Of a stretch of DNA of 18,550 bases, positions 1-18,550 are shown piece after piece. Numbering within the stretch: position 1 is the stretch's first letter; every line of letters begins with the position of its first letter. Below the pieces are notes generated by a model that made no database searches, had not been told where the DNA came from, and saw only the letters and a program-made list of their open reading frames with translations. Made by a program: the position numbers and the translations under genes. The DNA comes from Sphaerosporella brunnea (lineage: Eukaryota > Ascomycota > Pezizomycetes > Pezizales > Pyronemataceae): contig VXIS01000552.1 in the NCBI GenBank assembly GCA_008704415.1, forward strand, positions 1 to 18,550, in the 5' to 3' direction.

Positions 1-993
1 AAACAACGCCACCTGATTCCCTGTCTTACAACCATCGACGCAGAAGGATTCGCTCAGCTATTTATTGAAAACGTCTTCAAGCACCATGGCCTCCCCGACG
101 TTCTCATCTCCGACCGAGGCCCCCAATTCGTTGCTAACTTCTGGAAACACCTTGCTTCCTGTCTTGGGATTGAGACTGCTCCAAGCACCGCCTTCCACCC
201 GCAGACCGATGGTCAGACAGAACGGATCAATGCCGTCACGGAGCAGTATCTCCGCGCCTACGTATCATACCTGCAGGACGATTGGAAGAAGTATCTCCCC
301 CTGGCCGAATTCGCAGCCAATAACCAGGCTTCCGAGACTACGTCACTGTCTCCTTTCTTCGCCATCTATGGCCGTAACCCTAAGTGCTCCTTTGAGCTAG
401 ACATTCGGACCGACAACCCCGAACAGGTCGACGGGCAGCTGGTGGCTGAGCGGATGTCACACATCCACGACGTTCTACGAGCCGAGATGAAGTACGCCCA
501 AGCCAGATATACTGAAGCCGCCGATCGGTCTCGAGCCCCCGCCCCTGTGTTCAAAGAGAACGACCTCGTCTGGCTGGACTCTAGGAACTTGCGCACGGAA
601 CGACCATCTAGGAAACTCGAAAACAATCACCTGGGCCTTTAACGAGTGGTTCGAGCCGTCGGTACCCATGCCTATGAATTGGACATCCCCGACACCATGA
701 AGAACCATCGCACCTTTCCAGTCTCGCTCCTAAACCCGACATCTTCCGACCCCCTCCCTGGACAGATCATTCCATCCCCTCTCCCTGTTGTTGTCGATGG
801 CGAAAAAGAATGGTCCGTCGATGCCATTCTGGATTCCCGCTTGGTAAGGGGACGCCTCCAATATCTGGTAAAGTGGACCGGCTACGACCCACCGGAATGG
901 GAGGCGGCGGAAGGAATCAATGGCCTTGAAGCTATCGACCGCTTCCACGAATTGTACCCACACAAGCTCGGACCACTCCCAGATGACAGCTAA
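1..993 (+). pseudogene. Ty3/Gypsy polyprotein, integrase C-terminal part with chromodomain; interrupted by an in-frame TAA
   Basis: Frame 1 is open from base 1 to 639, meets TAA at 640-642, and continues in the same frame to a second TAA at 991-993. Seen: the integrase core motif SDRGPQF (D at codon 38) and GQTERIN (E at codon 74). These are 35 residues apart, the D-35-E spacing of retroviral-type integrases; the first catalytic Asp lies before the window. The stop falls exactly in the GPY/F module, where family members have Gly-Pro-Phe/Tyr, and downstream residues (about 646-700) fit the rest of that module. A chromodomain follows at about 805-966, with EKEWSVDAILDSR, YLVKWTGY and the C-terminal helix FHELYP. 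In this family the integrase inserts element cDNA and the chromodomain is thought to steer insertion by reading histone marks. Codons before and after the stop stay in register, so this is a nonsense change or base error rather than a frameshift. Confidence 0.9.
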
Positions 994-1015
994 AGCTTCG
1001 TCGGAGCTCAGCCAT

Positions 1016-1028
1016 AGGAGGAGGATAC
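1016..1028 (+). promoter_or_regulatory. Polypurine tract (plus-strand primer site) of the retrotransposon
   Basis: A purine run, AGGAGGAGGATAC, ends directly at the TGTCAC start of the LTR. Its position between the polyprotein stop and the 3' LTR is where Ty3/Gypsy elements keep the RNase H-resistant primer for plus-strand DNA synthesis. The assignment rests on position and composition only. Confidence 0.75.
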
Positions 1029-1440
1029 TGTCACGGCTCAAGGTTAAGGGGTGGCTCGGCGCTAGGGTTAGGGTGTCACGTGACGCGCGGTCACGTAACG
1101 GGAAAGCATAAATGGCGAGGTTTCACTTGTTTTTGTTTCTTTTCTTCTTTTCTTCTTTACAGAACGTCTTGTATACTAGCGAACCTAGTAACCTTGAACC
1201 ACCTTGTCTTGTCTCGTCTTCTTCTGCCTCTTGTCCTTGTCCTCCTGCCTCCGGTCCTTGCCTCAAAAGCTACGTACCTTGGACGTTTCCTCGCGCCTGT
1301 CCCGTTACAATGACTCCAGAGGCGGTTCGGGGGGCGGCCACATAGGCCTACTGACTGATCTTGGATGTTGATACTATTCAATGATTATAAACGTACCATT
1401 CTTATACCAAAATCCCATTGTCATAGTTTAGGGTGTGACA
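1029..1440 (+). repeat. 3' long terminal repeat, 412 bp
   Basis: The repeat begins TGTCACGG straight after the polypurine tract and ends GGTGTGACA, so the ends form the inverted repeat TGTCAC/GTGACA expected of an LTR. Inside are two copies of GTCACGT (1075-1081 and 1090-1096, the first within a CACGTG palindrome), a TATA-like CATAAA near 1106-1112, a long pyrimidine-rich stretch to about 1265, and the motif CCGTTACA at 1302-1309. The U3/R/U5 borders cannot be fixed without a transcript. The 5' LTR is not in the window, so LTR-LTR divergence (insertion age) and the target-site duplication cannot be measured here. Confidence 0.85.
1106..1112 (+). promoter_or_regulatory. TATA-like element in the LTR
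   Basis: An AT-rich GCATAAA stands about 25 bases downstream of the CACGTG palindrome and upstream of a pyrimidine-rich region that could hold the transcription start. The same order (CACGTG, then a TATA sequence, then a pyrimidine-rich stretch) recurs in the array at 1901-1960, which supports a promoter role. Confidence 0.4.
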
Positions 1441-2142
1441 GTATGTCAATTTGAGTACCTTCGTTCTAATCTGAATCCCAACGGTGCGCGTCGCGCCTCT
1501 TGTGCTGCCTCTGAATCGTGACTCGGCCCCTTGTCCCAGAACCCATCCGATAACCCTCTGTACGTGAGTACCTTGGACCCCTCCAGCCTGTTCCTGACTC
1601 TCTCCGTTACAGCGACTCTATGTTCGGCTACTACTTGGCGCAGGGTGCCGCGGTCATGTTGGCTATATACAGGTGCCTTCGCTTCCGCTTTGTTGTTTGC
1701 TTTCCTGTCTTCTAAACTGAACCTTCGTATGTCAATCTGAGTATTTAGGTCTGAATCTGAGTTCTGAGTTTTATGCACCATACCTCTCGTCACCTCCGAA
1801 TCTCGTCCTGCTCCCTTGTTCCTGAACCTGTTCGTTACCCCTCCGTACGCAAGTACCTTAGGCTCTTTCAGTCTGTTCCGACCCTCTCCGTTACAGCGAT
1901 CACGTGGGCTATATAGAAAGGCTTTCGCTTCCACTTGTTGTTTGGTTTCCTTTCCTCTTCACTGAACCTTCATATGTCAATCTGAGTATCGTGGCTCCAA
2001 TCTGAGTCCTAAACCTCGTACCTTACACCTCTTGCCTACCTTCGGATCCTGTCTTGACCGCTTGTTCCTGAATCCGTCCGTTAACCCTCCGTACGCGAGT
2101 ACCTTGGGCCCCTCGAATCTGTTCCTGACCCTTTCCGTTACA
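1441..2142 (+). repeat. Diverged head-to-tail array of LTR-like units (about 286, 245 and 171 bp)
   Basis: Three units start with RTATGTCAATYTGAG, at 1441, 1727 and 1972. Each runs through TACG..AGTACCTT and ends near CCGTTACA (1604, 1888, 2135). Units 1 and 2 also carry GGCTATATA and a TTCGCTTCC...TTGTTGTTTG...TTTCCT block before the next unit. The third unit stops at CCGTTACA. The order CACGTG, TATA, pyrimidine block, GTACCTTGG, CCGTTACA is also the order inside the LTR at 1029-1440 (CCGTTACA at 1302). Spacings of the motif from the LTR onward are 302, 284 and 247 bases. I infer old tandem LTR fragments of a related element. An unrelated satellite that resembles an LTR by chance is less likely but not excluded. 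Confidence 0.7.
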
Positions 2143-3279
2143 CACACGCCACATGGTAGCCAAACATAGTCTTGGCAAAGCCCAATAAAGGCCTGTAACA
2201 TCCTAATCCAACCTTGCGCCGTTACAGTAGGATATAACCAAAAGGTGCTATGACGTACGTTGGAATGCACATGACACCAGCACCGCAACACTGACACTCG
2301 AGCCTAGGGTGATGACAATCCTGAACATCGTACAAGCGGGGGGTGGTGACACAAATCTTAGTAATTGGACCGCCCGCCGCGGTGGGCTGCCTAGGGCGCG
2401 CACCGGTTACACAGGCAGTGGGTTAAGGTTAGATCTCCTTGCCCGTCTGCCGATTTCACGGTGCGCACAGGGAAATGATCGATGCAACGTTACACAGTGC
2501 AAAATACAGTGTGAATATCAACAGCCCTCCGGACCCCTAATATCTCCACGTCCCTCTCTCCCTTGCCCGCTCCGGCCTCCTATTCGGCCCTGCACTTCTC
2601 TCTCACCCCGTCCTCCGTTGTCTGCCGCTTAGGCATCTTTTATTCTGGTGGTAGGTAGTAGTTGATATGTTGATTTGGTCGCGCTGTGTGTTGTGGTAAT
2701 ATCACACGAAGATTTGCCATTATGCCTTTTTTTGTACACTCTCATTCTTGCGTGAAAACGTCCAAGGGGATGCGGTCACCGCACATTGGGCATGGAATGG
2801 AATTGGGTGCTTACAGGTGGGGGGAAGTCTCACCGCGCAATGAGCATGGAATTAGGTGGCCAAGGTGAGGAATTGGGTGCTTGCCGGTGAGGGGCAGTGT
2901 GCATTATTGGCTACAATCCCTGTCCATTTGTTTCACTCGCCGCGCGCATGGTGGGGGTACCGGTGTTTTACTCGCCGTCATGTTCAGCGTTTGCGAGAGC
3001 TTGCAATGGACCGAGAAACCGGGTGCCAAGGGACGGAAAATCAGGTCGAAATCCCCTTTTCCGGACGTTTGTCGGAACACACAATACTCTACAGTTCCCG
3101 TCTGCGAAATGCTTTCCCGTGGCATGGTAGTAGACATGGCTTGCACGGTAGTTGTTGTTGTTGTTGCAATGCAGGAGACTTTGCGGGACGGACCGGCAAT
3201 CACTGACTGCTGACTGCCTGACCGACCGACTGACTGGCTCAAGTGAAACGGGAACAGAAACTGATTCGAGCACCGCTGC

Positions 3280-3365
3280 AAGCTAGCTAGCTAGCTAGCT
3301 GCACCGCAAACGACGAGCAATTTTTTTTTTCTCTCTCTCTCTCTCTTGCGAACTAGCTAGCTAGG
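3280..3365. repeat. Clustered microsatellites: (AGCT)n, T10, (CT)8, then (CTAG)n
   Basis: AGCT repeats occupy about 3280-3302, a T10 run 3321-3330, a CT run 3331-3346 and a second CTAG tract about 3353-3365. Similar CTAG tracts recur at 3994-4001, near 5003-5009 and at 5290-5311. Confidence 0.9.
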
Positions 3366-4116
3366 AAGCTCTTCAGCATGTCATATATCTGCATCTGATT
3401 ACCCGAGTTCCCAATGTACTGGCAACAACAGAAAAAAAGAAAAGCCTTTCACATGCAACGGGTGTGTCTCCGTATCTGTAGCAAGCAACTCTGGTTTACC
3501 GGCAGGGCTGATCAGTGAGAGGGTTGACCCCCGTTCATGATGATGGGAGCCATAAGCGATCTACTAGCCACTGGGGGCCTTCGGAGCTTTTGCTGGCGAC
3601 TGCCCCTACTCCTGACGGTGGGGTGGGAGGGGGGGGACGGTCATTGCCAACCCTGTGGGCCAATATATGAATGATTGACACCTGGCGAACTGGGGTCGTG
3701 GTTCGCATGGTTTTTCTCACCTCAAACACCTGGGTGTACCTACCCAGGCAGTTAGTTAGTTTGCACATCATCTCATCCCTCAGTTTTTCTTCTCCACAGC
3801 TCGAGTAGTAGTAGGAGTGTTGTAAGTAGCTCCCGCCGCGCTCTTTTCCAGCCGCTGAGCTCCCCGGTCTCGCCTCGTCTCCGGCTAATAATGATCCAGC
3901 GGCTAGCAACTCTGCTGGGGTCGCTTCCGAGGGGCTAGCAGCCCGCATCAATCATCTCACCCCGCGGGGGGGGAAGGTGCAATTTCTTCCAAGCTAGCTA
4001 GAAAGCTTCGAAGCACAAAAGTCGCAACTATTGGCACGGTAAAGCTACCTACCACACATTCGTAGGCATATCCGAGGGGAGGGGGAGGGGCCAGATGAGA
4101 TGAGTTGAGTATACTT

Positions 4117-4144
4117 GCTACCTACCTACCTACCTACCCCCCCC
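4117..4144. repeat. (CTAC)n microsatellite followed by a C run
   Basis: Five or so CTAC units lead directly into a run of seven or more C. Confidence 0.9.
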
Positions 4145-4251
4145 TCCACCCCCAATCGTTAACGGATATTTCCGCGCGCGGATAATTGAGTTTGTCGTAA
4201 ACAAGAAGCTGTCGTTGTTACCGTAGCTCCGGAATTGCAAGGCTCCAATTC

Positions 4252-4303
4252 AAAAAAAAAAAAAAAAGGCCCCTTCCCTTCCCTTACCTTCCCTTCCCTT
4301 CCC
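4252..4303. repeat. A16 tract followed by (CCCTT)n
   Basis: Sixteen A residues (4252-4267) are followed by repeated CCCTT pentamers with one CCCTTA variant. Such tracts are prone to polymerase and assembly error, so their length is uncertain. Confidence 0.85.
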
Positions 4304-4481
4304 GGCCGGCAAAGATAAAAAAAAAGGACACCCCTCCCCCCGCCCCGGCCGGTGAAAAAAACTGGGACAAACTAATCTCGGGATCCGTTAACAGCGGCGG
4401 CTCCCACCGAAAAGGAAAAGCAAGCCATCTCGCTCGGTAGATTTTATATACGCACTTACCGGTACTTCTGTGAATACGAGA

Positions 4482-4512
4482 GACGGACGGACGGACGGAT
4501 GGACGGGGGGGG
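4482..4512. repeat. (GGAC)n microsatellite ending in a G run
   Basis: GACG/GGAC tetramers, with one GGAT variant, run into a run of about eight G. Confidence 0.85.
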
Positions 4513-4587
4513 CGATGTACATATCCTACAGATGTGTCTGTAGCTAGAGTACGCAAAGCAGGTCGATACGTCTGTACATACACCACA

Positions 4588-4620
4588 AGAAAAAACAAAA
4601 ACAAAAAAACAAAAACAAAC
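4588..4620. repeat. (AAAAAC)n-like A-rich repeat
   Basis: Four to five units of A(5-7)C in succession. Confidence 0.8.
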
Positions 4621-4925
4621 GTCGACATCCATGGCGGCCCACTCACCCGTCTGTCGGGAGTGACCTCTAGGGAGGGGAGGGAGGGGCTGACTCGACTCGG
4701 CAAACTCATATGCTCATGCTCATGCAAGAAGAAGGTTAATTAACTCATTTTCTATCACACCACCACGGCAAAAAAATCATCTTCCCTTATGTACTATATG
4801 CCCCCCCCGAAGAGGGAACTCACCGTCGAAAAGGAACTTAATACCGCCGATTAAGCTGTGGCCCGTGCAGCGGTGCATCTCGTTCTCACCCCCACACACG
4901 CGCGGCAACAACATACATTCCTACG

Positions 4926-4945
4926 CGCCGCCGCCGCCGCCGCCG
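4926..4945. repeat. (CCG)n trinucleotide repeat
   Basis: Six CCG units in a non-coding context. Confidence 0.9.
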
Positions 4946-5202
4946 GAAATCACCCAACGTTAACCGGAAATCACCACCTCATATATATCAGAACCGAGAA
5001 CCGCTAAGTACTAGCTAGTACACCGCGGTAACTGCCTATATCCCCAATCATTTACTCTCTCTCCCAGCAGACAGACGTCTAGCCCGCCCGAGCCCACGGG
5101 CCCCCTCGCGTCTAAGCCAATAACAATGCCCGATCTCCGTGAGCTAGTGGGAAAAGGCCAGGCACCCAGGTAACTATATAGTTATCTCAAAGATCAATCG
5201 AT

Positions 5203-5235
5203 AGGTATCCCGGGCTCGAGCTCGAGCTCGAATTC
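5203..5235. other. Cluster of palindromic six-base sites resembling a polylinker
   Basis: Within about 33 bases stand ATCGAT, CCCGGG, overlapping CTCGAG and GAGCTC units, and GAATTC. GCACTGGCC follows directly, and ACCCAACTT comes about 50 bases after GAATTC. It may be a short (GAGCTC)n repeat by chance. It is listed because the window also carries adapter-like sequence, so a vector screen is reasonable. Confidence 0.3.
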
Positions 5236-5289
5236 GCACTGGCCTCATCACGGGTGATTACGCACGCCATACGCAAAGTCACCCAACTT

Positions 5290-5312
5290 CTAGCTAGCTA
5301 GCTAGCTAGCTG
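5290..5312. repeat. (CTAG)n microsatellite
   Basis: Five units of CTAG, the longest member of the CTAG/AGCT tracts spread through this intergenic region. Confidence 0.9.
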
Positions 5313-6413
5313 TGGAGTAAAGTAACAGATGTTCTATCTAACTATCTAGAAAAGAAGCATTATAAAAAGGGAGGGTACGTACTCCGATAGGACAAGTCCA
5401 AAACAAACAGCCGGGTATATCTGGCAAAGAAACAGTATCTAAAGGGCGAGAAACAAGATATAAGAGACCATCTCCCGAGGTGTGTATGCCACACCCAGCT
5501 ATTAAATCCGACACCTCGGCAGTGCAGCTCCTCCAGATCCAAGCGCGTGAAAGATATTGATTGACCTGACACCACGGGCTAGATACCCGTGAAGCAGAAG
5601 TAAAAAAACAGCTCACACCATCTAATCTTCCCCACAAAATCCCCCGCCAAAAAAGGCCCCCACCACATGCTAAAACCACCACCCCGAAAGGAGAAAACTG
5701 TGTAACTTTTCTTCATGTCCTCATCACCTGTCGCCCAACCAACCAAACCGACCCGGCCCACCCCACCAAAGCACCGCGCAACACCCGAAAGCAGCAACAA
5801 AAAAAGCAATAGATGCCAGCCCAGCCAAATAAATGCTATTCCAAAGAGATAAAGGAAAGGTAGACGAACAAAGATTCCAGAACCCCGGATAAGATATGTA
5901 GAGAATAAGGAAAAAAAAAAAAAAAACTGTATGGAGCAAAAAACAGATGTAAAGATGTCAGCAAATATGATTAACGGAGTCCCAATAATCCAAAGCACCA
6001 CCTCTTTCCCTGCGCCTCAATTAACATAGGAAAGGTATTTGGTATCAACTATAAGAAAACAGACAAAGAAGACGCGGTAGTGAGAGTAGTGGATTGTACA
6101 GAGAACCTCCGCAAGGTAGGGTTGATCCGAGGATGGCCTCAAAAGGCGGCATGTGAAGAACTAGAACAGATTTCCAGCTGCTGCTTGGTAGGGTGACCGG
6201 CTGTTGGGGTGGAAATGTAAGATAGTTTTCGAAATGTTTGAGCAGAAAGACCACAGTCGTGCTAAGCAGTATCCCCTCAGTATGTAGGTGGTGACTTGAA
6301 TGTATGTGTGGCCGAAGGGCGCTTTGGAGAGGAATCAACCTGCTCGCAGGTCGGAACGCCACTTGCCCCGCAGAGGATCCGGTGAGCGATATCCGGCACT
6401 TTGAATGCATGGA

Positions 6414-8553
6414 TTATATGAAGTGAACGAATTCCGGCTCCTCAGCGCACAGAGCATCAAAATCACCTGGCCCAAGCTCCACGACGCCTGGAATAGCAGC
6501 TGCAGGGAATGAAAGGCCCTTTTCGCTGCGACCTTCAACAGCATATCCCGCGCCTGTGACAGACGACGCTCGTTGCTTTGTGAAATGGAAAGAATTGTGA
6601 GCCGAACTGGCGGGTGTAATAACCTCGTGTGTTTCGAAGTGGGTGATTGTGTCCGTGTCAGAGCAGAGGGTGACGCACGTTGTCTGGGAGTCTGCTCTTT
6701 GTCGTTTTCCGGAGAAAAGGCTGATGTCATCAGGCACTGTTGGCCTGCTCAATGGGCTCATGGGAGGCGAATTAAATGGAGAACCGCCCAGTTCCTGGTT
6801 CAGAGCTGCAATATGCTCGTCAAGTTGCCTTGCGACGCGGAACAGTTCTTCACGGTACGAGCGCATAGAAAGGTCCGTCGACGTGGTAATTGACCGATGG
6901 CGGAGAGCATTGTTGCCAGCGCGCATGAGCATGGACTGGTCGTCGGTGTTACCGCCCTCGAATCCACTGTCTCTCGCCCGTGGGAAGCCGCCGAATGAGC
7001 TGGGAGGGAACCGCGGGCTAGGTGGCAGCAGCAAGCGATCCTCGAACAGGCCTGTGATTCGCTTTTCATTGATAACGAGCTCTTCCTCCGCCGTCTCCTC
7101 CTTGATCTCTTCGGGAATCTCCAAAAGCTCGGATTTGGGGATCGGGATTTCAAAGGCGGCAGTTTCCAAAACAGGCGCAGGTGAGAACGATTGTGGTTCG
7201 TCGTTCGGGTTGCCAGCCGCGTTCTGCAGGTCATGATCCCAGTCAAAGTCGCAGTTGGCTTCCGCTTCGTTCTCGTAGCACCAATCAATGTCTTCCTCCC
7301 AGGAGTCAATGGTTGCTTCATCCAAGGTGAAACTTCCGTTCAACTTCATGTGGGTTGAGAGTCTGCACGAAATACGCTTTGAACGCCTTCGCGAGCCGTG
7401 TATAGGACTCGGTGGCACAATAAAGCTGCCATTGAGGGTGTCGGAAAGCTGGCTCAACTGAGACAGTGGGCGCGGTCGTACGCTCAAATACATTTGAGGC
7501 CTGTATACCATGTCGTCTTCTGCAGTCACTGTCAAATCGGGTGTTGATTGCGTTTCCCGAATCTGCGGCACGTTTGTGGACGTTGCAGTCCGCTCCAAGG
7601 CGTTTGCCTCCTCCTCCCCCATGTCGAGTCCCAACAATTTCTCCACTCCAATGGATGTTTCTCCAAAGCAGGTATCCTCCGAAGTAGTCACAGCATATCC
7701 AATCCCCCCGTCCGCATGCTGATCCTCCTCCTCTTCGGGTACAGCCACGAGAGAATCGTCCACTTCGTCGTGGCTCTGGTGATCTGCATCGGCGGGATGG
7801 TCGACCACTCTGCGGGAAGATGTTCTCACAGGAAGGGTAATCGGACAAGTCTGCTCCGTAGGAGAAGCGGGAACTTCCGGGAATGTTTGCATGGGAGATA
7901 GTGACTGCGTGGAGTTGGACCGCTGGCGAATAGGATCGGCGGATTCGACTCGGAGATGGCTAGGGAAACAGGTCTGTGCCGTTCCGGGACGCGATTTTGA
8001 TTCTCGGTGGAGGGCGCGGTTCCATTCTTCCCCCATCTCCTGATTTATCCGTAAACGGGACGCATCTCCGGGGTTCATCTGTGTGAGATGGGTGAAGTTG
8101 TAGGGGCCGCTGATGTGCTTCGGCCGTACTGTGGACACTGTCAGTACAATACCCCCATAGAGATGATGAAGGGATAGTCCTACTCGGCTGAGAGTGCTGG
8201 GGGGAAGACGATCGGAACAGCGACTCAGTGGAGAATGATGCTGTTGACATGGAATTCAAGCTGCTCTTAGATGTCATCTTGCGTAATCTGCTGCGCCGAG
8301 AGTGAATTGATGCGCCTTCTGCGTCCTCGGTGTATGTCCGCAATGGAAGCTTGAAGCCGTCCTCAGGGCCGTCTACCGCCGGGACATCCAAGCTCTTTCG
8401 TCGTCCTCCAAAAAGCGAAGCTCTAATGCGGGAACCCTTTCGTTCCCGTGTTCGAGGCTTCTCGGGTGTGGGCATATTTTCGGTATTTTCCATCTCGGCG
8501 CTCTCTTCCGCAGGTGATGGGCCTTTGGAGGATACTTTATTCAATAGGAACAT
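6414..8553 (-). CDS. CRIB (p21-Rho-binding) domain protein, 694 residues, two exons
   Basis: Exon 1 is 8553-8184 and exon 2 is 8128-6414 (TAA at 6416-6414). They are joined by a 55-nt phase-1 intron, giving 695 codons including the stop. Seen: a basic patch at residues 34-53 (RTRERKGSRIRASLFGGRRK), a Ser-rich stretch at 94-118, then a CRIB motif at about 128-142, PKHISGPYNFTHLTQ, with Ile, Ser, Pro, Phe and His in the consensus places. Further on are an acidic/Trp block near 400-420 (EEDIDWCYENEAE), Pro-Ser-rich disorder, and a short probable coiled coil near 545-570 (YREELFRVARQLDEHIAAL). CRIB motifs bind GTP-loaded Cdc42 or Rac, and a neighbouring basic patch often aids membrane binding, so a role as a polarity or actin effector at the growing tip is inferred. 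There is no kinase or other enzyme domain. The ATG context CAAACATG is good; M21 and M27 are possible later starts. The final His-Val-Gly of the consensus reads Gln-Met-Asn here. Confidence 0.87.
8129..8183 (-). other. Spliceosomal intron (55 nt, phase 1) of the CRIB gene
   Basis: On the minus strand the donor is GTAGGA (8183-8178), the acceptor is CACAG (ending at 8129), and TACTGAC lies about 11 bases before the acceptor, a strong fungal branch site. Splicing joins CCG A with TA CGG, creating Ile124 and placing the CRIB motif in frame; without it the first exon's frame runs out of the conserved motif. A nearer GTATTG donor would give an intron of only 24 nt, too short for fungal splicing. 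The 55-nt length is typical of filamentous ascomycetes. Confidence 0.85.
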
Positions 8554-9617
8554 GTTTGCGACTCTTGAATCCTAACCCGAGGCGTAATGAAACAAACGTG
8601 GCCCACGAAAGAATCGCTGGCGAATTGGCAAAATTGCGGAGGAAGATCGCAGGGTTCGCGGCTTTCCTGGGCACGGGAATGCGTCACTTAATATTTCGGC
8701 GCTCTGTTTCTATATACGGGCATCGCGTGAGTAAACGTGTGCTGCAACCTGGGTCGATAGAAGGGGGACTCCGAAAGGGTATTTAGGATAATATGCAATT
8801 TTGATATAAGGCTAGGATACCACTGGACACGCTGAGGCCCAGTGCATTGTCTTGCAAGCATAATTGAATTGGGAAGGAGGGCTGACCTGGAGCTATAATC
8901 CAATCAATCTCAGGAGATCCAGGTAAACAAGGACGGTCTATTTGGTAGACCTTGGTGAATGCGAAAGCAATATGATGTTCCCAGAACGAAGAAGGTTGCA
9001 CAAATTTGGTTGGTTGGTTGGTGTTGGTAAATCGGGAAATGCAGATCAGTGACGTTGGGAGCCGTTCAAGAAAGAGGTGCCGCCGGCTAAGGTGTCTATT
9101 GTGTCTATGGCGGGTACGATGCGCGGCAGCTGGGCGGCGAGTAGGAATGTCGTCCGAGCAAAGGAACGATTGGCAAAGAAAATGGGAAAACGAAGGTATG
9201 TATGTATATTGGTGTCTAAAAGCTGGGATCCGTATGGACTGATGCAATGCGGGTTGCGAGAAGAGATACGAGGGGACAAAGGTGCCGAAGGTTCCAAAGC
9301 GTCCCAGGCTTAGCTGCGGTAGTGTAAAGCCGGAGCAGGACTTGTAGGTAGTAGTGGGGCAGTGGTGGTAGTAGTAGTAGTAGCAGTAGTGGTCACTGAA
9401 GCTATTAAGAACGGGGATGAGATTGATGCTGCTGGTTCCTTGTATCCGCCGAGGGAGAGTGGGCTTCTCTTGCAGTTGCCTCTACCCATAAATTGCGGTC
9501 GTATCGGTGGAGAATGTAGTAGCGGGCAATTCGCCTTGTCGGTACCGTGCAACAGGCGCTTTCGAACAGGCGATAAGTGATTGATTGAAGCGAGCGGGCG
9601 AGCCAGACCGAGCTGTT

Positions 9618-9632
9618 GGGGGGGGGGGGGGG
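9618..9632. repeat. G15 homopolymer
   Basis: Fifteen consecutive G residues, with only about seven C residues in two short runs at the matching place of the inverted copy near 12948-12957. Its length is unreliable in most sequencing chemistries. Confidence 0.85.
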
Positions 9633-9862
9633 TGGAAAATTGAAAGCCGGCGGGATGCAGTTCAAATGCACTGGCCCGTTGCGGTTGGATACTAAGTAGG
9701 TATTATGCGATGCAAAGGAAGGATTGTTGATAAGGACGAGGGAATTGAGAGAGTGTGGGAGAATTGGAAAGGCGCTCGCTGGATTGGCGAATCGCAGCCG
9801 GATCGCGTTTGATTGGGGGGGGCAAGAAGGAAAGTGAGTGAGTGACAAGACGTGGAGAAGGG

Positions 9863-9889
9863 AGCAGCAGCAGCAGCAGCGCAGCAGCA
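9863..9889. repeat. (CAG)n trinucleotide repeat
   Basis: Five to six AGC/CAG units, one GCAGC break, then two to three more units. A noisy reverse complement appears near 12350-12375 in the inverted copy. Confidence 0.85.
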
Positions 9890-9951
9890 AGTAGCAAGCA
9901 GCGAGCGGGTGTTCGCACGGGGGGGGACATCATAAACGAAGATGCATGGCA

Positions 9952-10023
9952 CAGCGAGCCAGCGAGTCAGCGAGCCAGCGAGCCAGCGAGTCAGCGAGCC
10001 AGCGAGCCAGCGAGTCAGCGAGC
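9952..10023. repeat. Nine tandem octamers CAGCGAGY with a 24-bp higher-order period
   Basis: Units start every 8 bases from 9952. The last base follows the order C, T, C, C, T, C, C, T, C, so three-unit blocks (24 bp) repeat as C-C-T. This shows growth first by octamer and then by 24-mer. It lies about 1.4 kb upstream of the CRIB gene's ATG. The inverted copy near 12178-12262 is scrambled by inserted bases. Confidence 0.9.
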
Positions 10024-10851
10024 GTGGGGCTGGGCCACTGCCTAACTCGGCCGCAGAGGCCTCCCTTCGCTCGATTCAGATCAGCCCTGGCTCAATCAAT
10101 CTCATCGCAGCAGACTCATCTCGTCCTGCTCCTGCTGTTTCCTCTCGTCCTTCGTCCGGGCAAAACAACGGATTCGAGCGGAGGAGGGCAGGGGGGTCCA
10201 AACGCGCGCTGGGCTGGCGCTGGCGAGGTTGCTTTTGCGGGTTGCCTGCCCCAAAAAGCCCAAAACGCACCTGGCCGCCCTCCCGCTTGCGGCTAGTCCG
10301 CGGAACTTTTCACGCGCCGGACGCTCGGAGTTGGCCCTGAAGCAACCCCCCCAGCGGCCGGCTTCTGTCGCCAAAACAACCAACACCTCCTGAGGTCCTG
10401 AGGTCCACCTCCGAAATTGACATGCGATCGGCGTTGACACCACCCCCCCCACCCCCGCCGCGACCACTACCACCACACATACGCCTTATGCAAGAAGTAC
10501 CGAGGAAACGCGTCCTGTCCAGGCAAGTGGGCTCGGACTTCGCGATGTGTGTTTGTCTGCTTGTGTTTGTGTGTGTGTGCACGTGCGGTGCTTGCGATTG
10601 AAGAACATGTGTCGACTTCCCATCGCAGGTAGCGTATCTCTGACAACGCTTCCTGCACGAAAAAAAAGAAAGAAAAAAAAAAGAAAAAGAAAATCACGTC
10701 TTATAAATGTAACCGCGTGCAAATCCCACGAACAGTGGTGCATGGCGTGAGGTTTTTCAGTGTTGGGGTGTTGGGGGGCCGTTCGAATTCGACGATTGTT
10801 CTCTACTCGTGTCGAAATTGCAGCATCATGTTGGAGAGGAGCGAACTGATG

Positions 10852-11010
10852 ATCTCTCGTCTTGTTGCCTCCTCCCTCCCTGTCGTCCCTCCCGTTCTGG
10901 TTTTGCTGTTTAACCGAGTTTGCGGCACTAAACCACCGTTGTTCTTGGGCCGTAGTGTCAATGCCCCCCCTCCCCGTTAGTTTTCCCGTTTTTGTTGTTG
11001 TGAGAGAGAT
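10852..11010. other. Turning point 1 of the palindrome, with SMRTbell-adapter-like ends (probable artefact)
   Basis: The segment opens ATCTCTCGTCTTGTTGCCTC followed by CTCCCTCCC, and closes with CGTTTTTGTTGTTG then TGAGAGAGAT. The standard PacBio hairpin adapter begins ATCTCTCTCTTTTCC, has CCTCCTCCG in the loop and ends TTGTTGTTGAGAGAGAT. Both halves of that pattern are present with extra bases, exactly between two arms that are reverse complements. The segment is 159 nt rather than 45, and its middle (about 10895-10960) does not resemble the adapter, so that part is unexplained. Confidence 0.75.
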
Positions 11011-14000
11011 ATCGTTCTCCAGACATATGTCCCACGCGGCACGAATGCGAACGGCCCCTCAACACCCCAAACTGAAAAACCTTCACCTCCATGCCATGTG
11101 TTGCAATTGCCTGATCCTCATCGACTTTGGCGACCATCCTGTGTTTCGTGGATTTGCAACGCACGGCTTACATTTATAAGACGTGATTTTCTTTTTATTT
11201 TTCTTTTTCTTTATTTTATTTCCCACAGTAGACTAGGACGTCCGATAATGTCATGAGATACGCTCACTAAACCTGCGCATGTGGAGAGCCAGATTCGACA
11301 TCATGCTTCTTCAATCGCAAGCGAGACACGTCTGCTACGTGCACTTCGTACACACACTTAAACCCATCTAGTCAGCAGAACTAGAAGTATCGATCTGAAA
11401 CACTTCGCGTAGGATTCCTACGGCTTCAAGGCTACCAATGCTTGACCGCTCCTTGCACTGTGCCTGGAGACCAGGACGCGTTTCCTCGTACGGCTTCTTG
11501 CGCTTGCACTACAGCGAATGCATCTCGAAGCAACCCAGCATTAGTTGATCTTGGGTGCTGGTGCTCGGTAGTGGTCGCTGGCTGGGGGTGGGGGGGGTGG
11601 GTGTCAAAGCCGAGTGTCGAGCACTGCTACTTGAGGATTTCCGTGCAGGTGGACATCAGGACCAACTAGATGTAGGTGATGCATTCGAATCTGTTTGGCG
11701 AACTTTCAAAGTTAAGCCGGCCGCTGGGGTTTTGAAAGGAATGTTGACCTTCAGGGCCAGAGACTCCGAGCGCGCAGCGTCGTGGATGAACCAGATATGC
11801 CGGCGTGACTAAGCCCGGTCAATGGAGGAGGGGCGGCGCAGGTACGCGTTAGTATTTGGGCTTGTGGTTGGGGCAGCACAGGCTACCGCAAATTATAGAA
11901 AGCAACCTCGACCAGCGCAGCGCCTAGCGCCGTTGGACCCACCAGTGCCCTCCTACCGCTCGAATCGTTGTTTTGCCCTGACGAAGGAACGCAGTAGGGG
12001 GGAATACATGCGAAGAGCACGAAGGGACGAGATGACTCACCATCGCCAGAGGTGAGTCACTGCTGCGATGAGACCAGTCTGATCTGATGTTGATGTTCGT
12101 CTAGGTGATCTGAATCGGAGCGTAAGGGAGGCAGACTCTCGAATCGCGACCGAGTTAGGCAGATGGCCCAGCCCCACGCTCGGCTGACTCGCTCCGGCTC
12201 GCATTGGGCTCATCGCCTGATCTCGCTGGCTCTGGCTGGCTGCTGACTCGCTGGCTCGCCGCTGGTCGCACCTATTGTCGCACTACTTCTTGGTTAGGAG
12301 TGTGTTTCCCCCGACCAGTGGGACAAAGCGAACACCGCGCTCGCTGCTTGTACTGCTGCTGCGCTGTGTGCTGCTGCTCCTTCTCCACGTCTTGTAACTC
12401 ACTCACTTTCTGTCTTGCGGCCACCCCCAATCAAACTCGATCCGAGCGTGCGATTGGAACGCCAAATCCAGCGGGACCGGGGCCGCCTTTCAAGGTTCTT
12501 CACCACATCATGCCTTGCTGGACAAATATAGTCCTCCTGTTGCCACAGACAGACATATCAACTGCCAAAGAGGTGTAACCTATCGAGGGGGTCTCTGTCC
12601 CCGAATAAATGATTGACTCTGGGATTGACACTCGTCCGGTAGCCGAGCCGTATAGTAGTGAGTTTAATGAAAAACATCCCGTAACGTTCCTTTGCCCGAC
12701 AAAATAATCCGCTCCTTATATCGGTGAGGAACCAAAACAAAAGACCAGAGAGAAGCGGTCAATGGTTTGGTTAGACCATGATGTGCTTTGTCGACATACC
12801 ACGTCCGAAGAGTTGACATGGACCAAGGAATCAATAGCAATTGACTCCCAACTGGGGCGCCGACCTAAGCGGAGTAACGGCGGATGGATTGAATTTCCCT
12901 AAGAGCATCCCGCGGCGAGGGCTTTTCACACATTTGTCCACCCCCTTCCCCGCCCCCACATTGGAACAGCTCGTTGTCTGGGCGTGCGCCCGCTCGCTAT
13001 CAATAATCATCTTATCGCCTGTTCGAAAGCGCCTGTTGCACGGTACCGACAAGGCGATGCCCGCTAGCTACGATTCTCCTACTCCGTATACGACCGCATA
13101 GGTGTTTTATTGGCGGGTAGGCATCTGGCCCCAATCTTTGTGCCGCACCTGACACTGCAAGGGCGGATCTCCTGCAGAACACCTTACGTCGATCTGCAAG
13201 AAGAATTGTCACTGCTTCGCATCCACGCCACCCCTAGGCCACGGCGTTAGATGAAATATACAACTCTGCGGAACCTGTAGCACGTATAGGTGTAGTCAGT
13301 GCATACCTTCTCGGCTCATGCCTCCCTTGAGGGGCTGTCAAACAGCTCTCTGTCAGTGACCACTCACTGACATACTAATACTACAGGACCACCAATGCAT
13401 GAGACCACCACTCACTACCTAACAAGTTGCGCATGCTCCGGCGTTTAGCAGCCAACCGCTCAGCTAAGGCCTGGGACAGCTTAGGAACCTCTCGCTGAGT
13501 ACCACCTGTCGTCCCCTCGTTATCTCTTCTCGCAACGCATTGCATCAGCGATATAGGACAGGGAGATGCGCAGCATTTTGTAGATCTCTAGCGAAATATA
13601 GGGACATACTGCATACCTTCGTTTTCCCATTTCTTTGCCTAACTGCCGTTCAGTTGTGGTGAGCCACGTGACGACAACTTAGTACTAACGCGGCGCTCAT
13701 CAGGAGGTGCCGGCATGCGAATGCGGTGTAGCCACCGATCCCATAGATCACAGGGAGGGGCATAAGCACAACCATTAGACACGGACTGGTGTCCATGGCA
13801 CCACTCTTGTGATCTGAACGGCTCCCAAGTCACTGATCCTGCATTCGTCGCAAGATTTGTGGACATCTCAAGCAGCCAACACTGCACCAACCCAACACCT
13901 ATCAACTTTGTTGCAACCTGACTTCGCTATCTGGGAACATAATTGCTTTCGCATTCACCAATGCGTCTACCAAAAGACCGTCCTTGGTGCATTGTACCTG

Positions 14001-15398
14001 ATGATTCTGACCTGAGTATGCATTGGAGATGTTTATAGCCTCCAGGTCGGAGCCTCCCGTAGACCCAAATGGACACATTTTATGCTCGTGCAATGACAAT
14101 GCACTTGGCCCACCTCAGCGTGTCATATGTGGTATCCTAGCCTTATATCCTATAAATTTGCATTCATTAATTATCCTCCAAATCATCCTCACACGTTGTC
14201 GGCGTCCCCCTTCGTTATGTCGATTCCCAGTTTTGCAGCACATCGTTTTACTCAGTCAAGCGGAGAATTCCAAAAACGCGTATCGATAGAAAAGACCGAT
14301 TGACGTCGCCGAAAATATATAGTGACGCTCGATCTTCGCGTGCCCGAGGAGAGAAAGGACGTGCGAATACCCTGGCGATCTTCCGCCATGACAATGTTGC
14401 CAATTCCCATGACATTGCGCATTCTTGCGGTGGGCCACGTTTGGTGTCATTACGCTCCGGGTTTAGGATTACAAGAGTCGCAAACATGTCGTTTGAAATA
14501 AAGTATCCTCCAAAGGCCGCGATCACGACGGCGCGAAAGATTGATCCCGGAAGAGAGAGCCGAGATGGAAAAATTACCGAAAATATTGCCCACCCACCCG
14601 AGAAGTGCCTCGGAACACGGGAACCGAGAAGGGTTCCCGAATTAGAGCAGCTTCGATTTTGTGGAGGACGACGAAAGAGCTTGGATGTCCGGCGGAGACG
14701 GCCCTGAGGGACTGGGTTCTTCAAGCATTGCCGATTGCGGGTTGACATACAGAATCCGAGGATCGCACTATACGAAGGCTTAGTAAGGCGCATCTATATT
14801 CTTACTCTTCGGCTGCAGCAGATTGACGCCAAGATGACATACTAGAAGAGCCGCTTGGAGATGTTCCAGTGTGGGTCAAACAGCATCATTCCCACTGAGT
14901 CGCGGTCGATCGTCTTAACCCCAGTTCAGTCTCTCAGCACGAGATATGCGAGGACTATCCCTTCATTCATCTCTGTATGGTGGGGTATTTGTACTGACAG
15001 TGTCCACACGTACGTGAACAGAATGACACATCAGCGGCCCCTTACAACTCACCACATCTCACACAGATGATTGGCAAACCCCGGAGAATAGATGCCGTCC
15101 CGTTTACGGATTAAATCAGGAGAGATGGGGGAAAAAATGATGAATGGAACCGCGCCCTCAACGAGAATCCAAATCTCCGGTCCCGGAACGGCACCCCAGC
15201 GACCTGTTTCCCTAGCCATATCCGAGTCGAATCCGCCGCACATCCTATTCGCCAGCGGTCCAACTCACCACGCAGTCACTATACTTCCCATGGCAAACAT
15301 TACTCGGAAGTTGTCCCGCTTATCTACGGAGCAGACGGTCTGATATACAAACGTGCCTGTGGAGAGAACAACTCTTCCGTCAGAATGTGGTTCGACCG
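11011..15398 (-). repeat. Noisy inverted copy of about 7801-10851 (probable unsplit read pass)
   Basis: The copy runs collinearly in reverse complement from 10851 down to about 7801. Exact anchors are 10689-10712 with 11166-11189 (24 nt) and 9532-9577 with 13011-13056 (46 nt). The octamer, CAG, promoter and exon 1 regions all reappear in the expected reverse order, ending with the complement of 7801 next to the second adapter-like site. The copy is 4388 nt against about 3051, so it carries a large excess of inserted bases. Expansion varies along it: about 22 percent over the 7801-8820 part and about 70 percent over the 9480-10040 part. Coding and non-coding stretches suffer alike. This pattern fits raw single-pass sequence rather than mutation. 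Confidence 0.88.
14486..15398 (+). pseudogene. Broken inverted copy of the 5' part of the CRIB gene (probable artefact)
   Basis: The start region CGCAAACATG of the CRIB gene reappears with ATG at 14486-14488, and the sequence can be followed through exon 1, the intron (GTACTGACAGTGTCCACA at about 14992) and exon 2 to the position matching 7801. Frequent one- to three-base insertions and deletions destroy the frame within a few dozen codons. It should not be annotated as a paralogue. The gene copy is truncated where the whole inverted arm stops, not at a gene boundary. Confidence 0.75.
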
Positions 15399-15458
15399 AT
15401 CTCCTTCCCTTTTACCCAGCCTTCCTAACGTTGTGTTGTTGTCTGTTGATGGAGTGAT
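15399..15458. other. Turning point 2: SMRTbell-adapter-like sequence (probable artefact)
   Basis: Reading through the site in order: ATCTCCTTCCCTTTTACCC, then CCTTCCT, CGTTGTGTTGTTGT, TTGAT and GGAGTGAT. This tracks the adapter from its ATCTCTCTC stem through TTTT, the CCTCC units, CGTTGTTGTTG and the GAGAGAGAT stem, with about fifteen extra bases over 45. It lies exactly where the inverted copy ends (matching 7801) and before the sequence resumes in forward orientation. It has the same orientation as the adapter-like ends of turning point 1, as expected if one polymerase passed both hairpins of one molecule. Confidence 0.82.
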
Positions 15459-15550
15459 GGTCGCTACCCACTCACCTCCCCCTCCGCAGTCCAACTCCTT
15501 CCCCCTTCAACAATTCCTCGTCTCTGTTCTCTGTGTAACCCGTGTGGTCA
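15459..15550. other. Unassigned noisy segment after the second adapter-like site
   Basis: GTCGCTACCCACTC at the start may be the first bases of the returning insert (GTCGACCACTC at 7800), but the next 70 bases, rich in C and T, do not align convincingly. Clear correspondence to 7815 onward resumes near 15555. Together with 15399-15458 the insertless stretch is about 150 nt, close to the 159 nt of turning point 1. Confidence 0.45.
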
Positions 15551-16517
15551 AGGATGGAGCTGTTCTCTAGCCAAGGGATTACACTGGGTTAATCCTCGTT
15601 TTGTTACAAAGCTGTCTGCGTTCCGTCATTACCGGAGAAGCGGGAGAGCACTCTCCGGGAAGCAGGGTGGCGGATGGGTAGACACATAGGAGTGACTGCG
15701 CTGGGGGAGTTGGGACATCAGCTGAGCGAAATAGGATAGCGTGGCGGATTCGACTCTGGAGATGGCGTAGGGAAACAGGTGTCTGTGCGTCCGGGACGCG
15801 ATTATTGATTCTCGGGGGAGAGGCGCGTTCCATTCTTCCCCATGCTGCCGTGAGTTTTCATCCGTAAACGGGACGCTATAACTCGCGGGTGGGTTCACTG
15901 TGTGATGGAGTGGAGTTGAATAGGAGTTGTACTGCAGGGCCGCTGCATGTGATGGCTGTTCTGTGCGTCGGCCGTACTGTGGGACACTGTCAGTACCAGA
16001 CTACCCCCACTTCAGCATGGAGATAGAAGTCTGGGATAGTTCTACTCGGCTGAGGAGTGCTGGGGGTGGAAGACGATCGGAACAGCGACTCGTTGGTAAA
16101 GCAGATGATGCTGTTTGACGATGCGAGATTCAGCTGCTCTTAGATGTCATCTTGCGTGAATCTTTTGGCTGAGCCCGAGGAGGTGTATTGATGCGCCTGG
16201 ATCTGCGTCCTCGGTGTGATCGTCCCCCCCCTCGCAAGGAAGATTGGAAAGCACGTCCTCAGGGCCGTCTACCGCGGGAATTGCCAAGCTCTTTCGGTCG
16301 TCTCTCCCGCGAAAATAGCGAAGCTCTAATGACAGTGGAAGCCATTTCGCTTCCATCAGTGTTCGAGGCTTTCGGGTGTGTGGGCAGTGGCCCAAGGATA
16401 GACTTTGTTCGAGGCTGTGTGTAATATTTTCCATTCTCGGCACGCTCCTCAGTTCCGACAGTACTTACCCACTCGATGGCCTTTTGGAGGAACTTTAGTC
16501 CAGGATGAGGAGAACAT
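15551..16517 (-). pseudogene. Broken second copy of the 5' part of the CRIB gene (probable artefact)
   Basis: The complement of the start region is recognisable at 16517-16515 (CAT inside GAGAACATGGTTTGCGAG), with exon 1 below it, the intron with ACACTGTCAGTAC near 15985, and part of exon 2 to the position matching about 7801. Single-base insertions break the frame repeatedly. The gene end and the copy end do not coincide, as expected of a read fragment rather than a gene duplication. Confidence 0.75.
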
Positions 16518-17650
16518 GGTTTGCGAGTCCGGATATCCTAACCGCGAGGGCTCTCTAATGAAGAACACAAAACGTGGCTCCACGCAAACGAATCGCTAGA
16601 AACCCTGCGATACTGATGTGCATCCTAAACACTTGCGGATGACGAAGATCGGCAGGGTTCGGCTGGCTTTTCCTGTCGGGAGCACGGGAACATGCGTCAC
16701 TTAATAATTTCGGCGCTATGTTGATAATACGGGGAATCGCGTGAAGTAAAGAGGTGCTGCAACCTGGGTCGATAGCTGAAGGGGGAGGTCTGCCGAATTA
16801 CGGGGTATTTAGGATAGATATTGTTCAACTTCTCTTTGGATTGTAACGGCTAGGATACCACTGGATCACGCTGATGGGCCCAGTGACATTTGTCTTGGCA
16901 AGCATATATTGAATTGGGAAGGAGGCTGACCGGAGCTATAATCCAATCAATCTCAGGAATCCAGGTTAAAACATAGGGACCACCGGAGTCTGATTGCTGT
17001 AGAACTTGCGTAGTGAATGCCGTGAAAGCCAAATAGGAATGGTCGCCAGTTTGTATACGAGGAGAAGAGGTTGCAACAATTTGGATGAGTTGGTTGCGTG
17101 TGGGTAGAACTTCGCGTCGGAATGTCAGATCCCTGGTCAATGCTGACCGTTGGGAGCGTTCAAGAAAGAGTGGTGCCGCCGGCTAGAGGTGTTCTTCATT
17201 GGTCTAGGTTGTCTGCGCGTTGTGAGGCGCATGCGCCGTCGGCAGCTGGGCTCGGCGAGTAGGAATGTCGCGAGAAGGCAGGGGGCAAAAGGAACCGAGT
17301 GTGCAAGAAAATGGGAAAAACGAAGTATGTATGTATATTGGTCGGTCTAAAAGCTGCGGATCCGTGATGGACTGACTGCACTAGCGGGTGCGAGGAAGAG
17401 ATACGAGGGGGGACAAAGGTGTCCGAAGGTTCCAGGAAGCGTCCCAGGCTTGAGGCTTGCGGTAGTGGAAAGCCGGGCAGGGACCGTGTAGGTAGGTAGT
17501 GGGGGCAGTGCGATGGTAGTTAGTAGTAGTAGCAGTAGTGGTCAGCTGAAGCTATTCAAGAACGGGGATGAGAGTTGATGCTGCTGGTTCCTGATCCGCC
17601 CGCGGGAGAGTGGGCTTTTGTCTCTCTGCGAGTGGCCCCTAGCTAATTGG
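15551..17650 (+). repeat. Noisy forward copy of about 7801-9495 (probable third read pass)
   Basis: This segment follows 7801-9495 in the original orientation, with exact blocks such as 8261-8284 matching 16134-16157 and GAAGCTATT.AAGAACGGGGATGAGA near 17550. It is about 2100 nt against 1695, again longer through scattered inserted bases. It contains copies of part of exon 2, the intron, exon 1 and about 940 bases of 5' flank. It differs from the inverted copy at different positions, as independent reading errors of one template would. Matching stops near GCTAATTGG (17642-17650). Confidence 0.87.
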
Positions 17651-18550
17651 TAAGTGGAGCCGTAGTTTCACATCAAACAAATCAATATCCAGTTCCCACG
17701 TCTGTTCTTCCGCCGTCCGTTTGCGCCGCTTCCCCCGTTTCTGCTTTTCTTCTGTTCTTGTCCTCTTTCCCCCGTTCTCGCCTTTCCGTGCGTCTCTTAA
17801 TCGCCTTCAGTGTTCATGTGTTGCCGTTCGTCTTTGGCCCTTATATAGGCTTTCACTTTGGTTAGCTCATTTAATTGTCATTTTAATCTGGCTGCCTTTT
17901 CACCTTTTCTCTACCCCCCGGTTTTAGTGGATCGTCTTCTCAATCTCTTTTATAGGCTGGAGCCTGTTTCACGCAGTGTGGTTTCAGGGTTGTGTTGGGG
18001 AGGTAGTATTTTCGATGCGTTTGATTTGACCAACCAACAGCCACCTATGGCTACTATCTTCCTGCTCTTGCTAGTCTAACTATTGTTTGGCCTGTAGGTG
18101 ATGGATTAGCGCTTATACTATAACTTATTACTATATCCTCAACTTAGTTCCCCTTCTCTACCGTTACTACCTACGCACGCTCGACGGTCCCCTACCCCAC
18201 TCATTCTCTTGCCCCTACCCACTGTTATAAATACCTACAGAGGGCCTCAGTTCCCGGTCAATAGTTATCGTTTGCTTGCTCACCTGGGGCTTTTTCATTA
18301 AGTTATTTTAATTGCTATAGGATGTTTGTGATCTTCGTATTTCGTCTGTTTATATTTTATTCTTTTTTTTTTCCTTGTTCTCTCCTTTGTGGGAGATTTA
18401 CGGGCGAGGGTGCTTAGCGCTGCCGACGTAGACTGATTCTGGGAGGAGACCATTTTGGAGGGCATGAGGTTGGCCTTATTGAACTATTTCGCAGTATAGG
18501 CTTTATCGTAGGTGATTTTAACTACGGTTGATTTAGATGTAAAACATTAC
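17651..18550. other. Unassigned tail without gene or match elsewhere in the window
   Basis: The sequence is pyrimidine-rich at first (17695-17800) and AT-richer later, with a T-rich run near 18361-18374. I find no convincing reading frame and no copy of it elsewhere in the window. If the third pass continued, bases matching 9496 onward should follow, and they do not. It may be unrelated genomic sequence joined by misassembly, or low-quality read end. The sequence does not decide between these. Confidence 0.5.

Follow-up and report, generated by a model that had tools for sequence, protein, structure and literature searches.

A palindromic, adapter-bearing end of a Sphaerosporella brunnea contig that almost certainly stems from an unsplit PacBio SMRTbell read

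INTRODUCTION

The closest described systems to the structure reported here come from work on PacBio reads and the assemblies built from them. The study presenting HiFiAdapterFilt (PMC8864876) describes, as its error type D, a contig in which an inverted duplicate lies beside an adapter. In the PBJelly paper (PMC3504050), retained adapters are given for ~1% of PacBio reads, and the discussion section of the Pacasus paper (PMC6218980) attributes some palindromic reads to missed SMRTbell adapters. As described in PMC7671305, PacBio raw reads combine low substitution with ~3% deletion, ~8% insertion, and elevated frequencies of A↔C and G↔T changes, whereas in Nanopore reads each kind of error stands at ~4% and transitions predominate.

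The stretch of DNA that we analyzed (hereafter, the window) is an entire contig of 18,550 bp (C504; VXIS01000552.1) of S. brunnea, whose assembly comprises 640 contigs with a total of 50,565,648 bases. Since the window is the whole contig, the structure described below sits at a contig end.

RESULTS

Three alternating arms with common end points

Self-BLAST of the window paired 7799–9028 with 15397–13886 on the minus strand and 7900–9466 with 15691–17617 on the plus strand, and smaller minus-strand pieces reached as far as 10750–10791 against 11082–11042 (E = 0 to 3e-58 for the three largest pairs). Alignments at low gap cost placed arm 2 at 11011–15398 and put the beginning of arm 3 at ~15523; at its far end, arm 3 is matched by BLAST to 17617 and by the low-gap-cost alignment to ~17666 (Table 1). 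The arms alternate in orientation (+/−/+) and have common end points: the left end is 7799 for arm 2 and ~7783–7799 for arm 3, and the right end of arms 1 and 2 corresponds to position 89475 of another contig, C55. Owing to their many inserted bases, arms 2 and 3 each exceed in length the portion of arm 1 to which they correspond.

An earlier, sequence-only reading of the window had proposed much the same arms and turns, and both methods bear out its coordinates, including an end of arm 3 at "about 17650", which is fair given the two stopping points above. It had also estimated that ~7.5 kb duplicates an insert of ~3.05 kb. The duplication itself stands, but the sizes change: the unreliable stretch is ~7.76 kb (10792–18550), of which ~6.5 kb is re-read insert (11011–15398 plus 15523–17617), and the insert is ~3.03 kb.

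Table 1. Features of the 18,550 bp window
Feature	Coordinates	Strand	Remarks
Left-hand clean sequence, outside the three-arm structure	1..7798	+	Self-BLAST; starts within a dispersed retroelement-like repeat
Arm 1, clean part; true genomic insert sequence	7799..10791	+	Errors of arms 2 and 3 relative to it are mutually independent; 10477–10791 is 100% identical to C55
Arm 1 end, 60 bases, raw noisy read	10792..10851	+	Stands for ~32 genomic bases, C55 89444–89475
First turn, SMRTbell adapter	10852..11010	+	Stems at 10852 (5′, start) and 11010 (3′, end), either separated by noise or belonging to two copies of the adapter
Arm 2, second pass, insert reverse complement, raw read	11011..15398	−	Self-BLAST and alignment; first bases track the C55 continuation
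Second turn, whole SMRTbell adapter, noisy	15399..15458	+	0/1000 shuffles as high
64 bases between second adapter and arm 3	15459..15522		Arm 3 alignment begins at 15523; best further adapter alignment here reached by 220/500 shuffles
Arm 3, third pass, forward, raw read	15523..17666	+	BLAST-supported to 17617, weaker to 17666
Contig tail	17667..18550		No match to the insert or the rest of the assembly when 17618–18550 was tested whole

Error profile of the extra arms

Compared with arm 1 over 2993 positions, arm 2 carries 35 substitutions, 82 deletions, and 1445 inserted bases, whilst arm 3 (to 17617), compared with the first 1668 positions, carries 14 substitutions, 59 deletions, and 463 inserted bases. 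Insertion rates per base are, accordingly, 0.48 for arm 2 and 0.28 for arm 3, with substitutions at ~1% and few deletions. Inserted bases outnumber substitutions by ~40 to 1 in the extra arms, where 45 of the 49 substitutions are transversions and 4 are transitions. Both the order of the error kinds and the kind of change agree with the PacBio profile of PMC7671305, although the insertion rates are several times the 8% published there; with a rate so far above the published mean, the read would be unusually poor.

Arm 2 has 75 wrong positions and arm 3 has 73 among the 1668 that all three arms cover; only 2 of these are wrong in both (3.3 expected by chance), and insertion sites common to arms 2 and 3 are likewise close to expectation (35 observed, 37.8 expected). 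Because the errors of arms 2 and 3 are mutually independent, arm 1 is the true sequence. The pairwise alignment of arms that the sequence-only reading had suggested thus yields insertion-led, PacBio-type differences. Its description of a clean first arm and noisy extra arms holds for arms 2 and 3, but the clean sequence stops at 10791 rather than at 10851. Long insertions in arm 2 are found at arm 1 positions 9428–9475, near the point at which arm 3 breaks off, and at 9693–9751, and a 15-G run occupies 9618–9632; a template stretch that is difficult to read may conceivably underlie both the long insertions and the break-off.

Adapter sequence at both turns

The 45-base PacBio adapter, whose letters are confirmed in PMC8864876, served as query, and alignment scores were judged against dinucleotide shuffles. 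The adapter scored 44 at 10852–10905 (1/1000 shuffles as high), 43 at 10970–11010 (0/500), and 46 at 15399–15458 (0/1000), and every alignment at the turns contains many gaps. When both strands of the window were scanned in tiles, the top 11 of the best 25 tiles all fell at the two turns, the next one elsewhere scoring 37. The 5′ stem of the adapter starts where arm 1 ends (10852) and the 3′ stem stops at 11010, adjoining the start of arm 2; we read 10852–11010 as one adapter with an internal burst of noise, the alternative being two copies.

A loose pattern for the 3′ half-site, TTGTTGTTGN{0,4}GAGAGAGAT, has a single match in the 50.6-Mb assembly, at 10992–11010 in the first turn, with 0 matches on the other strand and 0 for the reversed control across the whole assembly. 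The pattern for the 5′ half was discarded as an uninformative marker, having given 3 hits, none of them in C504, against 2 for its reversed control. A search with the 3′ 29 bases of the adapter, allowing ≤3 mismatches, returned no match. The sequence-only reading had reported adapter-like sequence at both turns and had recommended a screen at relaxed identity; at each turn a noisy adapter does score above shuffles in such a screen, whereas near-exact searching is negative.

The true continuation lies in another contig

Window 10477–10791 is identical to C55 89118–88804 on the minus strand (100% over 315 bases), and 10480–10791 also matches C55 89133–89443 on the plus strand with one gap. Agreement with C55 is perfect as far as 10791 and disappears thereafter. 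The start of arm 2 tracks C55 past that point to 89475 (0/2000 shuffles as good), and the last 60 bases of arm 1 (10792–10851), tested alone against C55 89444–89475, gave an alignment reached by 13/2000 shuffles; an earlier comparison of the arm 1 end with C55 (0/200 shuffles) took in 52 identical clean bases and is no test of those last 60. Since both the start of arm 2 and, more loosely, the end of arm 1 track C55 to 89475, the insert ends ~32 bases past 10791, at the adapter, and the genome continues into C55. Beyond 10791, C55 offers a clean sequence unlike that of C504, and the start of arm 2 agrees with it; the turn is hence not genomic sequence. As judged from the 315 identical bases that mark their meeting point, C504 and C55 are likely to be neighbours that the assembler left unjoined.

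C55 has a peculiarity of its own. From 89133 to its end at 108182 it is the reverse complement of 89118–69315 at 98.6–99.0% identity, the right arm lacking ~700 bases (79482–80189). Only 14 bases (89119–89132), too few for an adapter, separate the two arms, and the right arm has no unique flank and extends to the contig end. On the true sequence, the C55 turn is ~350 bp from that of C504. The last 19 kb of C55 are probably a second foldback artefact, cleaner and adapter-free, the alternative being a real inverted duplication; the foldback is perhaps of the kind named as "polymerase strand jumps" in PMC6304105. As only 315 clean bases are common to C504 and C55, which approach this locus from opposite sides, coverage was probably thin at this point, with each end extended by a protruding read. 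A tendency of the meeting locus itself to fold back while DNA is prepared or sequenced, say at a nick or at a stretch able to form a hairpin close to the C-rich tract (~10440–10479) and the A/G-rich tract (10660–10693), would account for two contig ends turning ~350 bp apart, one through an adapter and one without, but we consider it improbable.

The tail of the contig

Tested whole, 17618–18550 aligned to 9440–10851 no better than shuffled sequence (53/200 shuffles as good forward, 81/100 reverse), nor did it match arm 1 7799–9466 (40/100 forward, 81/100 reverse), and nothing else in the assembly matched it. With the same aligner, equally long pieces of true arm scored 1105 against a shuffle maximum of 317, and 737 against 257. 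A global aligner had stretched arm 3 to the contig end, and we rejected that extension given the whole-tail score. The first 50 bases of 17618–18550 extend arm 3 weakly. Among five sub-pieces of the tail that were tested, 18201–18400 gave an alignment reached by 4/200 shuffles, to arm 1 9465–9593, which is exactly where the third pass would proceed. Tested as 18201–18330, the aligned part (18204–18322 against 9465–9593) beats 500/500 shuffles, but 10/1060 sliding windows of clean contig score higher. The third pass may resume near 18204 after ~550 bases of noise.

Genes and repeats in the window

A gene conserved in pezizalean fungi, whose relatives are named hypothetical or CRIB domain-containing, occupies 6414–8553 on the minus strand. 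Its 574-amino-acid frame (8138–6414, minus) has as best named relatives proteins of Trichophaea hybrida (55% identity), Geopyxis carbonaria (47%), and Rhizina undulata (41%), along with four Tuber records at 37–39%, among 29 proteins listed, the first of which is the contig's own. Trichophaea, Geopyxis, Rhizina, and Tuber are all genera of the Pezizales. A Pfam search of one relative (P0004) returned no family. Aligned to the window, relatives P0004, P0007, and P0018 match strongly at ~8135–6417 and more weakly at an upstream exon within 8553–8086 (E = 1e-12, 3e-4, and 0.04), whilst in arms 2 and 3 they yield only scraps, at E = 0.05 or worse. Such scraps recur there because the 5′ exon falls in the re-read insert.

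At the left end of the contig, window 1–1400 has at least 39 further matches of ~1.3 kb at 94–99% identity in the assembly (40 of 323 candidates were scored), and the frame at 646–990 matches the Pfam chromodomain. Window 1–1309 is probably the end of a chromodomain-bearing LTR retroelement, and this dispersed repeat is the likely reason for the break at the contig's left end. Self-BLAST also shows three diverged direct repeats of ~170–250 bases at 1442–2142 (75–80% identity).

Other contig ends

Ten contigs, taken from 16, had no kilobase-scale inverted repeat in their final 3 kb, only short self-matches of 22–33 bp in 2 of the 10; the same test would have missed C504. The last 12.4–12.6 kb of 3 of these 10 contigs were likewise free of kilobase-scale inverted repeats, with self-matches of 24–30 bp in 1, compared with 17 hit lines for window 6000–18550. 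Five further loci gave a 119-bp inverted pair in 1 (the end of C628) and none in 4. The sample of 10 contigs and five loci gives no rate for such ends.

DISCUSSION

The right end of C504 is almost certainly an unsplit PacBio SMRTbell read, a continuous long read in which the hairpin adapters went unrecognised. This is the interpretation that the sequence-only reading had put forward, and it gains support from the alternating arms, the adapter at the turns, the common end points, and independent errors of PacBio type; the position of the contig end, inside the third pass or shortly beyond it, fits as well.

Arms so clearly related by self-BLAST, in a genome that has dispersed repeats, might instead be a real inverted triplication in which ordinary mutation or repeat-induced point mutation (RIP) has degraded the extra copies. 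RIP produces C-to-T transitions. Decay of that sort does not square with 45 of 49 substitutions being transversions, nor with inserted bases ~40 times as frequent as substitutions, and a genomic triplication would also have to contend with an adapter at both turns, with the other continuation offered by C55, and with errors that are independent between the extra arms; we regard its probability as negligible. Foldback or hairpin reads from a Nanopore instrument can also give inverted arms. An origin on that platform is just as far-fetched, given that the turns match the PacBio adapter and that insertion-led, transversion-rich errors fit PacBio and not Nanopore as the two are profiled in PMC7671305.

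It is somewhat less remote, yet still very unlikely, that the palindrome arose with no missed adapter, as a chimera formed before sequencing by whole-genome amplification or through a polymerase strand jump. Such events do yield palindromic reads (PMC6218980; PMC6304105), and the adapter-free foldback of C55 could be of the same kind. In C504, however, both turns carry the adapter, and the third pass sets out from the very left end that the second had reached.

Under the unsplit-SMRTbell interpretation, the polymerase would have read the ~3.03-kb insert forward (7799–10851), crossed the adapter (10852–11010), read back along the other strand (11011–15398), crossed the second adapter (15399–15458), and begun the insert again (~15523–17650). 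The assembler would then have extended the contig with the first pass and kept the remainder uncorrected. We infer that a single read was involved, that a lack of other reads caused polishing to fail there, and that a failing read produced the noise of the tail.

To the right of 10,791 in C504, calls of inverted repeats, pseudogenes, or duplications, and any count of genes, would be spurious. The sequence-only reading had declared such claims false to the right of 10851; the artefact is confirmed, and the boundary moves left to 10,791. Biological calls in the last 19 kb of C55 are probably spurious likewise. Near-exact searching passes over the adapters of C504, while alternating arms with insertion-led differences are easily spotted.

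The artefact class to which C504 belongs is already published, and nothing here is of a new kind. As in error type D of HiFiAdapterFilt (PMC8864876), an inverted duplicate directly adjoins a PacBio adapter in a contig. That type is described for accurate HiFi reads, whereas C504 has two turns, extra arms of raw and highly noisy sequence, and adapters that escape a near-exact search. Like the retained-adapter reads of the PBJelly paper (PMC3504050), C504 contains opposite-strand subreads of one template with common end points and an adapter that was not identified; unlike those reads, which were mapped to a reference, its artefact entered a contig and spans three passes. The palindromic structure is also that of the long reads corrected by Pacasus, but the main subject of that paper (PMC6218980) is whole-genome amplification, in which palindromes need no adapter.
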